Assembly: GCF_040436345.1 (NCBI RefSeq)
Contig: NC_133218.1
Location: 25,222,710-25,286,709, forward strand
Origin: Pagrus major
Lineage: Eukaryota > Chordata > Actinopteri > Spariformes > Sparidae
DNA: 64,000 nucleotides
Direction: 5' to 3'
The notes beneath the pieces were generated by a model. That model had not been told where the DNA came from. It ran no database searches and was given only the letters and a program-made list of their open reading frames with translations. The position numbers and the translations under genes were made by a program. Of the stretch, positions 13,676 through 63,418 are shown piece by piece; position 1 is the stretch's first letter; each line of letters opens with the position of its first letter.

Positions 13676-13874
13676 TCCCTGATGACTACCTTTCCCAAAA
13701 TGCAAAGCGCGACGTCTTTAAACTCCTGTGTTTACGCTCAGCGGTCACGTTCTCCAATCTCTGGAGCGTCAGCCTGCTGGTCACTGTACTTCAACTCAGA
13801 CATGGTGGCAGCCGTCAGTCTGCACGACAACTCCTCGTTTCTACTTCAGCGTTGTCAGTGTTGTCAGCGTAACG

Positions 13875-15418
13875 ATGCCGGGGATGTGCTCTGTGCCGGG
13901 CTGTAAGGGCTACAGGAAGGCCAGGTCCCGGGGAGTCGTCTTCCACTCTCTGCCTACAAGAGACCCGGGCCGATGCAGAAAGTGGTTAAAGGCCATCCAG
14001 AACCCCAGATTTGACGAAAACACTCCAGTCAGTAAATACGGCAACATAAGAGTCTGTAGCCAGCATTTTAAACCGGAAGATTACGACCCGGACATACAGG
14101 CAGAACTTATGAAAACAACGCCCAGAAAAATCCTCAAGTCCCACGTAATCCCATCTGTTTTCTCTGGAAGACAACGAGAGGACCTGAACACCTCTCTGCC
14201 AGCTGATGACAGCAGCCGAACAGAGGTAAATCATTTATTTCACCTGGAGTTTTAGACATAACGTTGGTTAGGAACCCCACACGTGTGTGGCTTAGAGCAG
14301 TGTTGCTGCAGGGGAGGGTTTTTTCTTTCAGCTAGGACATCCATGTGGTGGAAAGGTAAAGTTGAAACTGGTGCATGGTGACAGGAGAAAACGTCAACCC
14401 ATACCTCAACCCCTGGTATTGCCTAACAGCATATAGGGAAAGTGGACGGGAGGAGCGGGGGATTTAAATAGGCATGCAGGCACTTCTCAATAACTATCAA
14501 TGACTTTCTATGAAGAGCCCTGCCTCTTCCTCTGACCCTGAAATGCCATAACAACATAAACAGTCAGTGTTGCCTGTCCTACTAACATCGGTGAAAGGGA
14601 GCGCAAACCAGCATAATTAATAAGTAACATGGGTAGGTCTAGCAAGTAAGTTTCAACATGATTACTCTGATTAAATTAAAATAGCTACATTCTGTCTGTT
14701 TGTTCCACTTACAAACATCTGTTTCTGAAACTTTCTTTATTATACACTAATATAGTTGGTTGTTGAGTGTCAGTCACTGACACTTTGGGCTGGTGCTGGG
14801 CTGACTACCACCCCAAAGCGTCAGAATGTAATGACCTGGGAAAGTGTTGCTATTTGACAACATGGGAATGAGACTCAACAATCAACCATGTTTCTCCAGA
14901 ATCACTTTTTGCACCTGTTAATCTGGAATCAGACATCTGTTTTAAAAAATACTGTAAATCAGGAGCTTGTTGACATCATTGTGACATTGTGGAACTGACA
15001 AGAAACTGCCCTTTGAGGCTGTCCCTTGATCATGCTCACATAGGACTGAAATCTTTCAGTCTAAGCCCACTTACTAATGGGCCCCACCTTGGTTAAACTT
15101 TATGCATAAATTGAGCTGAGATCAGAAAATCAGCTCCTAAAAAAACAGCCTTTTCTTCAGCTCGTTAAAGGAGTCAGCGGGGGCCACAGCTTAGAGAAGG
15201 AGAGGAGTTGAGATACATAACTGAGCTTCTGTTTGGTGTAAGATTTGCTGAGAGAGTGCAATACTTGTGTAGAAAACTTGGGTTGGGAAAGGTTTGTATT
15301 ACTTTTTTAATTGCAACAATGAGCCGTCGATTCAAGTTGGCACAACAACAGGTGCCATATGTTAGGTAATTTGTTCTAATGTGGAATTGGGTGGGAAATG
15401 ACTGACTACCAAAACATT

Positions 15419-38847: not shown

Positions 38848-41800
38848 ATGGTAAACCCTCCGAAACCGGAGTCAGAGTTAACGTTAGCTTGACTGATAAT
38901 AGCTAAGTAACCACACCGTAAACACTGCACCTCATCGACTCTTCACTGTTTTCTCATGTGTCTGTTTTGCCGGTACAGAGTCGCAACTGGGAGAGGTTAA
39001 TGTCTCAGCGCCAGAGTCAGGAGCAGCACAGACAGCAGGAGGCCCGGCGGGTGGACAGAGAGAGGCAGCAGCAGGCCAGTCTGCGGAACGAGGAGAGCTT
39101 TGAGAACAGGAGATACCTGCGACAGGTGCAGCAGGAGCTCAAGGAGAGGCAGATGGAGAGCGCTCTGCTGAAGGTAGGCTTCACTGTTGTACAGGTAATG
39201 TTAGACCGATAACAAGGTGCCACTCTCAGATCTGTTTTGTTCAAAGTTCTTGGCACCAAACCAAAGCTGTACCCATTATTAGCTCATTGTACATGTAAAA
39301 GCCCACCTTTGAAAACAAGAGTTGAAAATTAGCAACAGCTATAATCTCTGTACAGGACATCACTTACATTCTCTGTATTGGAACTATGTTAAACTGCATC
39401 GTCCTTATTAAATACAATGAAATACAAATGAATCATCATCAGCAGCAGCAGCTAACCCAATATGATGACTTAGCTGCCATGTCCTCAAAACAACAGATGG
39501 AGTAATTATCAAATAACTGTTTTGTATTTAAATTTAACATTAACAGCAGTTAGACTAATGCACTATACACTGCTACAGTGAAGCAGTACGTTTATAACCT
39601 GCAAAGACAAACCACCCTATTTGTTTTCTTTCCGAAATGAATTCGATATTTTATTTATTTTATCTACTTTTAGTTCAATGTTAATGATTTATTGTATGTT
39701 GTCCTTGTTTTCTCTTTTTCTTGAGTTGGTGTTGTTATTTACTTGCTCATATGCTGGAACTATGAAATTACTGTCTGATAGTCAGACTGAACTACCCTTT
39801 TGTTTTGCTAAAAGAAGTAATACAAAAAATCACCTATGTGGATAGAGATTGAGATGTCTGAATCAGACATTCAATATTTTTTCTTAACACAAGATTTTGT
39901 GGAAGAGCAATACTATTTTTCAATAATCATTTCTGAGTTTATTGGTAATCAGCATTTAATCAGCTAAGGTCCAAACTTTGAAAAGCATTGCTTTGTACAA
40001 CACTATGCTGTATCATCAAGGTATTGCCTGTGACTTACCAACACTCAGATGTAGATAATCATAATTGTTTTTCCTTGTAGGCAGAAGAGGAGAGAATTAA
40101 CAGAGAAAAGCAACTTGAACAAGAGGAGAGAATGGCTCAAGAGTTGGCCCGCATCAACTATGAGACGCAGAGAGAAGAGAAAATGAGGCAGTATATTAAA
40201 GAGAACAGGTACGCACACTCACTACATTACCATGACTGAATGTTTATTCTGGGTCAGTATACAAATGCAACATGTTTTGCTTTTGTCAAATTTCTCTGCT
40301 GCGTTCCCTTAATCACAAATGTTACAATTTAAATGTCTATTTAAATACTTTTCAGCATGGAGCTTCGAGAGTTGGAGGCAAAGCTGAAGTCTGCATATGT
40401 GAATAAGGAAAGAGCTGCACAGATTGCTGAGCAGGAAGCTATGAGGTTTGAGACAATGGTGAGCACTCTTCTTTGCATACGAGCCACCAGGCAGACATCC
40501 AGTGTTATTAAATATAGAAATAAATACTTAGAATTACGCTTACATCAATGTAGGAAAAAAAGGTACTTATTCCCTCTAATATGGAGCTCTGTAACTTCAT
40601 GAGACTTTAATTTGAAGTGGCAATTAACAGGCTATAAACTGTGTATGTGTTTTCTCTGAGGTTAGCGTGAGGAGGCAGACTTTGCTCGCACAATGAGGAG
40701 CGAACATGAGCGAACAACCATCGAGCAGCAGAAGCTGCAGCGGAAACGCCTCGAGGAGCAGGTGCAGTTTCAGAGAGAGCTGGAGAAGCAGCTCGTGGAG
40801 AGAGAGCGCAAGAGACAAGAGGCATACGAGGAGTTCCTGAAAGAGAAGCTCATGGTTGATGAGATTGTCAGGAAGATTTACGAGGAGGATCAAATGTGAG
40901 TCACAATGCATACAAGAATATTTTTCTCGCTTCAAGTAACAGTCAAGATATTAGTGTGAGCAAAAGCGTGACTTGAATTCAGTGGATTTAAATTCAGCTG
41001 AGTACTCCTGGTCCACTGTGAGTCTGCATGTGAAATAAAGTGTCTACTAGCAACCATCTCCTCCACAGAAAACGTGGTAGAATAATGGTTTTATTGAAAA
41101 ATGATGTTGTTTTCTTGAAGGGAGAGACAACTAAAACTGGAGAAGGTCAGAGCAACTCAGCAGCACATTGAAGAATTCAAGAGACAGCAGGCCGAGTGGA
41201 GAGGCATGGAGCAAGAACAGATGGAGGCTGAGAACAGACGCATCATGGAGTTTGCGAGCCATCAGCAGCACATGGAGGAGACCAGAATGGCTAAGATCAG
41301 AGAGAAAGAAGAAGCAAAGGAGCAACTTCATAAAATAGTTGAGACAACTTTTTTTTTAAAAATGCTCATACTTCTATCTGTTCATTCAATGACACAAGTC
41401 TGTACTGGCATCAGAAATGACTCCTCTTTGTTCTCCTCTAGCTGTCTGAGAAGATTGAAGAGGATCGGCAGCAGCGTGAAGAGATGGAGCGAGTCCGTGA
41501 GGAACTTTACTTAGAAGAACAAGAAGAGGCTAACAGGCAGAGAGATATTGTAAGTAATAAATATCACTTTTTAAACATCCATGCTCAGCAGTTCTGACCA
41601 TAATAAAGTAATCACACAGTAATGACAAAAAGCACAGCCAAAAAATATTTTATGTATTGTATATTCGGGCTGCAAGTTGCAATTATTGATTAATTTGTCA
41701 ATCATTTCTGGTGATTAATCGTTTGGTCTATAAAAATGAAGAATCACCATTACAAGTATGAAGGTAACAGCTTCAATCTGCTTGTTTCATTCAAAATAGA

Positions 41801-58400: not shown

Positions 58401-61400
58401 CCGGGAAAAGTGCCAACATGCAGATAGCGGAAGGGAGGAGACTGCCGCCTGAAGTAGGCGCCCAATGGCAGGCTTTACACCAACAGTCTACATGCTGTGA
58501 GTCAGATTATCTTGTGAGTGACATGGTAATTTCTTGTGAACTCCAAATGTGCAGTATTTTCCCACTACACTTTACCAGAGTTCATGGTAGTCCATCCAGC
58601 ACAAACACACAAACATGAGCCTGCTTGTGGCTCAAGAGGAAAAGTCAGAGTATCACCAAAGACAGTTGGAAACCATGAATGTTGGTGCAAACAATAATTG
58701 AGATATTGTGAGACAGTGGCGGGGAAACCAACCCGCAGATTGACAAAGTTGTGCAGTGCAGCTAAAAACATGAATAACTTAACAATCAGTCCTGTTTACT
58801 TTTGTGAACTCCCCAAGAATCACTCCCTCTTTTGCTGTGTTTGCTCCCCTGTGCAACAGGATGAGCTATACTTTTAAATCCTAGTTTGTGCTGATAAACA
58901 GGAAGGACAAATATTAAAACACCTCTTTTTATTTCTACAGCAAGATGTGGAGAAGTTCTCAGACATCGAAAAACTCTACCTCTACCTTAAGTTGCCTTCT
59001 GGTCCGAGCAGTAACACTGATAAAAGGTAAGACTACACCTGCTCTCTGACAGTCTTTACAGGACAATGACCAGTTAATGAAATATTTATGAAACAGAAAA
59101 TGCCTTAAATGATCAGTCATTGATAGTGGCTTACATTTCGGTTCACTATTGTGTTAAAAAAATGTTTATCATGTGAAATTATATATACACACAGATCTTA
59201 AATTAGCTTTGGTCACATCTCAGGACTGAGGTTACACTGACTTGAGTCAGTTAAGGTGTTGTTTCTTTTGCTGTGTCATTTGTTGATCAATCAGTGATGA
59301 TAAATAATCTTTTCTCAGTGACCAGAGCGCCCTGTCATCGAGCCGCACACAGCAGATGCATGCGTTCAGCTGGATCCGCAATCACTTAGAGGAATACCCA
59401 GAGACCTCTCTCCCCAAACAGGAGGTCTATGATGAATACAAGTAGGTATAATCAGAAAGTTCTCGAAAGCTACATGTTACATTTTCTGAAATGAGAATAA
59501 TGTTTCTGTCACTAAAATAACATACCAATTTCAAGCTGAGGCTTTGTTGTTAGTCTATTATTAAACACATGAAGATCATATATAACAGGGAATAAATCAA
59601 ACTTTTTTTTATTACTTAACTGTAGGCTTGACTATTTATTTGAATATTTATCGCTGGTTTTCACCCTTTGAATAGATAACAGCTTCTAATGTTTGAGATT
59701 CTTTCTCCTCTGAATTGCCGGCGGCTAAAGCGTCAGTATAAATAGACTCTGCAGGCATGGGAATCACAGAGAGCAGCATGTGTCGGTAATATTAGAATGG
59801 AAAGTCTGAGACAGCCATTGAAATGCTCTGACAGTATTATGTAACTGTCTTTTTAACTCTACCAGATCAGAAATACAGTGCCCTCCAGAAATATTGGCGC
59901 CTTTAGGACCGACAGGTGAAAAGGCTTTAAAGAGACACAATGTGCACCGCTTTAAAACTACGAAAACATTTTGTTTTGTACAATAAATCAGTTGTATGTG
60001 TCACAATCTTTAGTAAAGTCTTTCTTAAGGAGTTGTTTTATTTTACATTTAAGGTAGCTGATATTCACATATTTTCCTGCCACATGCTTTTACTCTGTGT
60101 TTGATCATTTGTTTGAAAAAAACACACCTTTTAGTTTAAAATAGCACAAAGGAAACATTTGAAGATTAACACCTACACACACACACTATTAAGCCATTTG
60201 GGTGCTCTGAACCTGCACTGAACCAGAGTTCAGAGCTGAAACTCAACTGTACCTGACAAACAAACGGAAAGAATCTATGTCAGAAGGCTCAATGTAGATG
60301 TTTCACCAAGACAAATGTCATCAGTTAACACAAGTCCTGCTCTGCAATGACTATAATTTATGTTACATACATCCATGTGTCTATATGGTTCATACTCTGG
60401 ATAGATAACTATTTTAGATGGGACTTTGGATGAAGCAGAATCAACCTCAATACAATCCAATTCTTCATACTTAAGGCTCATTTATGCTCATATCTGCACG
60501 TTTTTTGAAAGGATACAGAAGAACGGAGCAGTAACTGCAGTAGTCATGCAGGCTAGTGTAGCAGTGTAGCCAATAATTCAAACAAGACATGAAAAGATGT
60601 TTTAAAAATAGCAGAACTTTTTGAGGAGAGGTCATTTGAGTTGGTGAGAAGTTTTAAACATCTGTATGATGTAACTTCGGCACAGAGACAAACAGTTACC
60701 ACACAACAGATGGGAAGAGACTGGACGATGGTGATGCAAAGTGGAGGTCCGTGTGAGCCCGATTTCACTCTGAGCGCATTCTCTGGTGGTTGTATTGCAT
60801 AAATGAGCCTTTAACTTTACATATTAAACCTTTAAATCTGCACTAACTGATTTGGCAACTTGAGGGCAGCACAGGAGGCTGTAAACGCCACATTGACATC
60901 ACCTTATAAAGTTGATATAGCAAATTCGTCAGCAAAGACTTTTAAAACATTAAAATGATGGGCCATAAAACCAAAACAAATAAGCCGAAAGATGCTAAAA
61001 CTCTGCAGAGTCATAATATGTTGATAATATGGTTCATATCACTATGATCGATGATTGGCATAATACAAGTCATTCAATCAATTGTTAATATGAAAATGTT
61101 TATTAGTGCAGCTTTAATTGATCTGACAGATATCAGCACATCGTTATGAAAAAGTCACATTGAATTTTAGAGTAGATAAAAATTAAACTTTAAAGGCTTT
61201 TATCATATCAAATCAATTTTATTTATATAGGGCAAATTCCCAACGAAAGTTTTCTCATGACACTTTTAGAGCAGGTCTAGACCACACTCTTTAATTACTT
61301 AATTCAAAGAGACCCAACAGTTCCCCCCATGAGCAAGCACTTGGCAACAGTGGCGAGGAAAACCTGCAGACCTGGACTCATGATATCACCTCACATTCAA

Positions 61401-63418
61401 ATTCTCCATTCTTACTAACATTTATTTCGTAATGTCTTTCAGGAGCTTCTGTGACAATCTGAACTACCACCCACTGAGTGCTGCAGACTTTGGAAAAATG
61501 ATGAAAAATGTCTTCCCGAACATGAAGGCGCGTCGACTTGGCATGAGAGGGAAATCTAAATATCCTTGACTGGAATGGGTTGTAACAGTCTGGCCTCTGT
61601 CTCTGGTCTCAGACCATCTGCTGTTGCAGTTCATAAGCTCTCTAAATATAGATGTGAAATGAAATAAAGTCCCCCTCTGCCTCTGAAGCAGAGGCATAAT
61701 ACAGAGGCCCCTCGGGGGAGTCACTGTGATCTTGACCTTCATGAAAAAGGGAACTTTTTTCCCTTTTTTTTTGTGCAAAACTTGGTTCGTATTAATGACT
61801 TTCTGTCATTCATGTTAATTAAAAAAGTAATTCATTTGATGCGTTATTATGTTACTTAAAATTGCTTGTTGAAGGAGTTTTGCTTTGAACTCATATTAGC
61901 AAACTGTCCGAGGACTAAAGGATTTATTTTAATTAATACAATAAGTCAAGTAATCAAAAAGATCCCAAAAAAGAACTGGATTGTCAGTCATTTGAGACCC
62001 TATGTCTACAAATGACTGCAAATTTAAAAGCAGAACCTGGACCATTAATCCTATCAGACATAAGCATTTCAACATAGATTGCAACTTAAAAATTGATGTA
62101 TTTAGACAACTGCTCTCTAATTAAAGCCTTATTCGAGGGGCTTGAACTAAGATACAATGTGCAATAAAAAGTACTGACACATTTTGATTTTTGCAGAAAG
62201 TACCAGGTGCTTTTTCTGTCATGCATCAGTGACTTCAACTAAATGTTATACATGTGCTAGGCTAATAGTTTTAGATGTCATTACATGTATTGACATTTAT
62301 TATTGACTAGTTGACAAGGTAATTATCACCCCAAAGTGGTGTATATATGGTATAATACCAGCATATGTTTGTTTTCTGGAATCAGTTTGGAGTTTTTGAT
62401 CTTAACACCAGCTTACATATTGCTATAGTGGACTAAGGAAGAGGCCCTTTGTTCACATGCCATCTTTACCCACTCTGGATCTGCTTAAAACAGGCGACGG
62501 AGTAAGCAATGCCTTATTAATATCTCAGAATAATCTTAAACTTGTATTCTGACTCCATTAGTGTCCCTGTCCTGTCATGCAGTGTATCACATATTTAACT
62601 GCTTTTCTCTTGTGTGCAGCTCCAGTGTGATGTCTTAGAGTCAGCGGGCCAGCTGAGCAGCATACAGGAGGACGTGCGGTTTGCAGCCTGTGATCTGGTG
62701 TGCGAGTGGGCCCAGAAGGTTTTGAAACGACAGTTTGATGACGTGGAAGACTTGGCTCGCTTCCTAATTGACAGCCATTACATCAGCAACAAGTCTTTGG
62801 CAGCGCTCACTATTACAACCGGCACAGCAACAGGTAAGAGACGGTTTACATCAGCTTCATGCCTCCTGTCTAAAAACTGGTCGATATTGGCATCTAGTGG
62901 CAGCTACCTGTTACTGCACTTTAATTCCAGTTTGTTTTCATAAGGACAGCTGTATGTAGCTAATGTGGACAAAAAAAATAAACAAGTAAATATAGGTTAA
63001 GGTGTTGTCTAATGATCAAACCTTTTTGTACATGTAACTCAAGCTTATATTAACATATTTACACATTATGATGATGAGGTCATTACTTTTGACCAATAAC
63101 AGTGCTATGCATCTAAATCCCCGTTTCCCTTCTTCAGAGGTGAACACTCCACAGTCGGTCTCAGCATTCGTCCCCACCGCTGAGGCTCACTCCTTCCAGC
63201 CTCATGTGACCACCCTGTCCTCACCTTCTGTCGATGCGAAGCAGCAGCTCCAGAGGAAGATCCAGAGGAAACAACAAGAGCAGAAGCTGCACTCACCTTC
63301 ACCTGGAGAGGGACAAACTAGGAGGGCTGATGACGGTGTGCCTTGTGCCAGCCCCACTCCTCCATCTCCTCAGACAACCATCGGCATTGTGGTCGCAGCG
63401 GTCCCAAGCCCCATCACG
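49433..63418 (+). CDS. rfx7: Regulatory factor X7, 5' part (8 exons, 354 codons in window)
   Basis: RFX7 is a winged-helix transcription factor that binds X-box DNA. Exons: 49433-49554, 54278-54311, 58941-59026, 59319-59441, 61443-61559, 62417-62501, 62620-62833 and 63138-63418; every junction keeps frame and the gene continues past the right edge. The protein starts [11 protein letters not shown], with SIVQ-type linker [11 protein letters not shown] and [10 protein letters not shown]. The RFX DNA-binding domain covers about residues 85-170 ([49 protein letters not shown]). After it come [41 protein letters not shown] and [12 protein letters not shown]. Exon 2 is a 34-base microexon. Intron 5 has AT-AC ends. 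Teleosts can have rfx7a and rfx7b; the copy is not distinguished here. Confidence 0.93.
49629..50596. repeat. Two adjacent copies of a dispersed teleost repeat in rfx7 intron 1
   Basis: Copy one (about 49629-50096) starts AAAAGTAGCAATACCATAGT and ends near TCTCACCACTG. Copy two (about 50140-50596) ends AAGTCACATTCCACCACTG. Both contain the AGCAGCATTTTA or ATATGTAAAAT internal pieces and an AGTAAATGTA near the end, typical of a very common fish repeat recalled from memory. Confidence 0.6.
51338..51407. repeat. Hairpin repeat with 24-bp arms in rfx7 intron 1
   Basis: The left arm 51338-51361 and right arm 51384-51407 are reverse complements at 22 of 24 positions, with a 22-base loop. The core CTGACGCTTTGGG / CCCAAAGCATCAG is shared with the foldback at 14756-14888. 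Confidence 0.7.
52000..54277 (+). other. rfx7: rfx7 intron 1, remainder
   Basis: No exon recognised. A near-consensus CTCF site lies on the minus strand at about 53351-53365 (CCCCTGGTGGCC on plus). Confidence 0.5.
57489..57521. repeat. Perfect 15-bp inverted repeat with 3-base loop
   Basis: TTTGAAGAGACCTTT, then TAC, then AAAGGTCTCTTCAAA: a perfect short hairpin in rfx7 intron 2. Confidence 0.85.
59874..59935. mobile_element. Possible Tc1/mariner terminal fragment
   Basis: TACAGTGCCCTCCAGAAATA resembles, from memory, the terminal inverted repeat of fish Tc1-like elements. No transposase and no second end were found in rfx7 intron 4. Confidence 0.4.
61205..61395 (+). repeat. Dispersed teleost repeat just upstream of rfx7 exon 5
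   Basis: ATCAATTTTATTTATATAGG, GAGCAGGTCTAGACC, AAAGAGACCCAACAG and CATGAGCAAGCACTTGGCAA are pieces of a common fish repeat recalled from memory. It ends about 50 bases before the exon. Confidence 0.55.
61560..62416 (+). other. rfx7: U12-type AT-AC intron in rfx7
   Basis: The intron starts ATATCCTTGA (minor-spliceosome donor consensus ATATCCTT) and ends TTAC. A branch-site-like GATCTTAAC lies 11 bases upstream of the final AC. Joining AA to A restores K-Y-C-Y in the DNA-binding domain; no GT-AG alternative does. Confidence 0.85.

Follow-up and report, generated by a model that had tools for sequence, protein, structure and literature searches.

A predicted AT-AC minor-class intron within the RFX DNA-binding domain of rfx7 in Pagrus major

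We report that intron 5 of rfx7 in Pagrus major is, with a probability of about 0.96, a phase-2, 857-nt AT-AC intron of the U12 type that would be spliced out at 61560-62416 of the window, i.e., the whole 64-kb stretch of DNA analyzed (Table 1). The sequence-only reading had proposed an AT-AC minor intron at this position within the RFX domain, and the termini, donor, branch site, reading frame, and a second rfx7 copy all agree with this proposal; the donor, the branch site 11 nt from the intron end, and the AC acceptor that it had named were all found. The strongest evidence for the predicted intron is its recurrence in the second rfx7 copy.

Table 1. Coordinates of the predicted intron, its splice signals, the neighboring rfx7 exons, and the intron of the second copy
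Feature	Position	Strand	Description and basis
Exon 4	59319..59441	+	Start of the DNA-binding domain; match to C8 copy
Exon 5	61443..61559	+	RFX domain through GKS and the first two bases of K; preceded by AG acceptor
Intron 5	61560..62416	+	857 nt with AT-AC ends; sequence of the U12 (minor) type
U12-type 5' splice site ATATCCTT	61560..61567	+	8/8 vs published consensus
In-frame TGA if the intron is retained (GKSKYP*)	61567..61569	+	Read-through translation
Predicted U12 branch site GATCTTAAC	62398..62406	+	Branch A at 62405 (or 62404)
AC 3' splice site	62415..62416	+	Sequence, junction trial
Exon 6	62417..62501	+	28 residues, then GT donor; match to C8 copy
Exon 7	62620..62833	+	Ordinary AG/GT boundaries; match to C8 copy
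Exon 8	63138..63418	+	Ordinary AG/GT boundaries; match to C8 copy
Second-copy intron	C8:13334094-13333281	-	814 nt, AT-AC

The intron lies in phase 2 between the end of exon 5 at 61559 and the start of exon 6 at 62417, and it splits the last K codon of GKSK, a part of the RFX DNA-binding domain. ATATCCTTGA starts at 61560, TTAC ends at 62416, and joining 61559 directly to 62417 gives AA|A TAT TGC and restores the domain without insertions or deletions. On read-through, the frame reads GKSKYP*, placing the TGA at the third codon past GKSK, as had been claimed. When all donors in 61540-61599 were combined with all intron ends in 62380-62439, five junctions yielded an uninterrupted RFX domain, i.e., a 13-residue stretch across the junction, and the junction at 61560-62416 gave this stretch as predicted. 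The terminal pairs of these five junctions are AT-AC, TA-CA, AT-AT, TC-TA, and CC-AT, and only AT-AC at 61560-62416 has standard intron ends. The five junctions are equivalent because ATAT is repeated after both splice sites (61560-61563 and 62417-62420). Because of this repeat, alignment programs could set the rfx7 junction in five ways; in the second copy, ATA is the sequence that both sites have in common.

The donor is identical to the U12-type consensus ATATCCTT given in PMC2831892 and matches the RTATCCTT criterion for minor introns at all eight positions. Five contiguous base pairs, one of them G-U, are possible between ATATCCTT and the 5' end of the U11 snRNA of the same genome, and five are possible with its U6atac. 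The branch site (ATCTTAAC) agrees with TCCTTAAC at six of eight positions in the window copy, where it is a weaker match than the donor, and at seven of eight in the second copy; with one A bulged, it could form six contiguous pairs (one G-U) with the U12 of this genome. The distance from branch A 62405 to the last intron base is 11 nt (12 nt in the case of 62404); the value of 11 nt, found in both copies, falls inside the optimum of 11-13 nt reported in PMC3584512. By eye, the window copy has no polypyrimidine tract downstream of the branch site, while TCCTTCTC is located there in the second copy. An AG at 62410-62411 is located 5 nt upstream of the AC and 6 nt past branch A, and splicing at this AG would put the exons out of frame.

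The second rfx7 copy is located on contig C8 of the same genome (786 Mb in 25 contigs) and encodes a stretch very similar to exon 5 of the window. In this copy, exon 5 ends with ...GGCAAATCCAA followed by the donor ATATCCTTTA, and ACCTTAACTCCTTCTCAC precedes exon 6, giving the context AA|ATATCCTTTA...ACCTTAACTCCTTCTCAC|ATAC; splicing at these AT-AC sites also gives a continuous RFX-domain protein. The codon that is split, the phase, the AT-AC subtype, and the branch distance of 11 nt are identical between the two copies. In contrast, the intron interiors gave no significant alignment to each other (blastn, best E 0.30). The same signals in introns of 857 and 814 nt whose interiors lack significant alignment suggest that drift changed the remainder but spared the splice signals. 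Because the intron is present in both copies, we infer that it predates the duplication that gave rise to them. The C8 copy is kin of the window copy and, therefore, not a wholly independent witness.

The motifs alone do not exceed chance in 64 kb: ATATCCTT occurs five times in the window, both strands counted, versus 1.21 times per strand when the sequence was shuffled 100 times, and the triple of donor, branch site, and AC occurs once on the + strand and not on the - strand versus 0.18 times per strand in shuffles. By contrast, a donor at the exact junction fixed by the protein is expected at ∼4e-5 per position (5 sites in ∼128,000 positions). A pattern of a GKSK- or GQSK-like end followed in phase by RTATCCTT matched twice in 786 Mb, both times in the rfx7 copies, whereas the reversed control pattern matched five times; because of this control, the weight of the search lies in where the matches fall and not in their number. 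In viral contigs scanned for GGNAARTCNAAATATCCTT, 41 stretches were found, and none had an RFX-like upstream frame. What is beyond chance in the predicted intron is the position of the donor exactly on the protein-fixed junction together with its recurrence in the second rfx7 copy.

AT-AC termini alone do not fix the class of an intron (PMC2831892), and the major (U2) spliceosome could in principle remove this intron as it does for a few sodium-channel introns. We consider this very unlikely. According to PMC2831892, a G occupies +5 in sodium-channel AT-AC introns of the U2 type, while the rfx7 donor has a C at this position; moreover, the presence of the full ATATCCTT donor and, in both copies, of a U12-like branch site at a distance of 11 nt from the intron end argues against removal by the U2 machinery. 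The predicted U12-type intron resembles the A-type minor introns described for human SMYD2 (PMC7367187) and for fly pros and Syx6 (PMC2831892) in having the ATATCCTT donor, a TCCTTAAC-like branch site, an AC acceptor, and a short branch-to-end distance; it differs from these introns in its host gene and in a branch site that matches the consensus at only six of eight positions.

It is less likely still that the gene is spliced at an ordinary GT-AG or GC-AG junction to produce a shorter protein. When donors at 61480-61568 were paired with acceptors up to 62479, the frame stayed open in 11 pairs; however, all 11 lose an 11-residue stretch either completely or almost completely, the protein becoming shorter by a net 9 to 35 residues, and just two of them have a GT donor. 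The C8 copy retains the residues lost in this way, and RFX5 has similar ones. Over this range of donors and acceptors, none of the 11 open junctions keeps the RFX domain whole and each was rejected. Finally, the idea that this rfx7 copy is broken here, i.e., a pseudogene or an assembly error in which the AT-AC reading is accidental, has the in-frame TGA after GKSKYP in its favor but is highly improbable, because the flanking exons and those downstream of the window (locus L007) match the C8 copy as protein and the C8 copy carries the same kind of intron.

The identity of the host gene was assessed from the protein obtained by splicing at the AT-AC sites. This protein matches the Pfam family RFX_DNA_binding (PF02257) with an E value of 1.3e-19 and 71 bits (cut-off 27). 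The eight exons in the window, together with further coding sequence past it (L007), match the C8 copy as protein, and the remaining rfx7 intron ends that can be read in the window are GT and AG. RFX5 is the best relative of solved structure; over the part encoded by exon 5, the two rfx7 copies share 55% and 60% identity with it. In the motif MMKNVF, the window protein has a K where RFX5 and RFX1 carry an R. We take the window protein to resemble human RFX7; from this assumed likeness and the MMKNVF lysine, the host gene would most likely be rfx7. PMC2533330 describes a lysine in RFX7, which would predict the K of MMKNVF if the same residue is meant, and it treats RFX5 and RFX7 as one subgroup, to which the window gene would also belong.

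The window contains two further open frames on the + strand: that at 13722-14252 encodes a THAP domain (Pfam E 1.4e-17), and that at 41119-41511 encodes a trichohyalin-plectin-homology domain (Pfam E 6.7e-11). The latter may be mns1, which we assume to be a neighbor of RFX7 in human, and would then support the rfx7 identity by synteny.

The same genome has four RFX1-3-type loci (L008-L011) in which the RFX domain is also interrupted near its wing. In all four, the exon stops inside the R codon of RLGTR, which precedes the last K of GKSK by four codons, and a GT comes next, unlike the AT of rfx7. Because of these differences, the predicted AT-AC intron of rfx7 is not a feature of every RFX gene. 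In a search of the whole genome with the DNA-binding domain of human RFX5, all eight matches were to the two rfx7 copies or to the known RFX1-3-type loci, and a separate rfx5 was not found at that sensitivity; rfx5 may be divergent, intron-split, or absent in this genome.

All four minor snRNAs are encoded in the host genome. U12 (C23), U11 (C3), and U6atac (C6) have one locus each above the Rfam gathering score, and U4atac has two above the Rfam cut-off (C9:31503907-31504033 and C24:15345195-15345322). In the mechanism that we propose, the U11/U12 di-snRNP would jointly recognize ATATCCTT and GATCTTAAC, U6atac would take the place of U11 at the donor, and exon joining at the AC located 11 nt beyond the branch A would give AAA-TAT-TGC (K-Y-C). 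If the intron were retained, the protein would end at GKSKYP*, inside the DNA-binding domain, and the message would probably decay. On sound grounds, given these sequence features, expression of rfx7 would depend on the minor spliceosome.

AT-AC introns of the U12 type are well known as a kind, and the predicted rfx7 intron is a sound additional case. The sequence-only reading had called AT-AC introns rare. This stands for introns as a whole; within the U12-type introns of zebrafish it does not, as AT-AC introns make up 22% of them according to Table 2 of PMC7367187, and the subtype is for this reason unremarkable in itself. For the conservation of compared U12-type introns between human and other vertebrates, PMC2831892 gives a figure of at least 90%, and PMC10639083 quotes 91% for zebrafish. 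Because U12-type introns are conserved in this manner, human RFX7 likely has the same intron, and minor-intron databases likely list it; for other vertebrates, too, the rfx7 intron is probably already listed there. In the main texts of the literature searched, we found no article that pairs RFX7 with a minor (U12-type) intron or with the minor spliceosome. The string "rfx" is absent from the main texts of PMC2831892, PMC8280824, and the zebrafish zrsr2 paper PMC9501576. With regard to RFX7 and intron retention, the available text of PMC6440956 treats RFX7 mutations and, separately, the retention in fusion transcripts, and in that of PMC13336137 the word "intron" occurs in the title of a reference.

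For annotation, a gene finder that allows only GT-AG introns would truncate or mis-splice rfx7 at this position in both copies. RFX7 is a ubiquitous transcription factor that is studied as a p53-responsive tumor suppressor (PMC9981735), and the splicing of AT-AN minor introns in human cells requires CENATAC (PMC8280824). Because both rfx7 copies have kept an A-type intron in the DNA-binding domain, followed in the window copy by a stop two codons on, we tentatively speculate that RFX7 output might be set by the capacity of the minor spliceosome, in particular by CENATAC, and that the stress-responsive RFX7 program might serve as a readout of minor splicing across vertebrates, although we regard this as rather unlikely. 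The predicted AT-AC intron would make RFX7 a candidate target of defects in minor splicing and in CENATAC.
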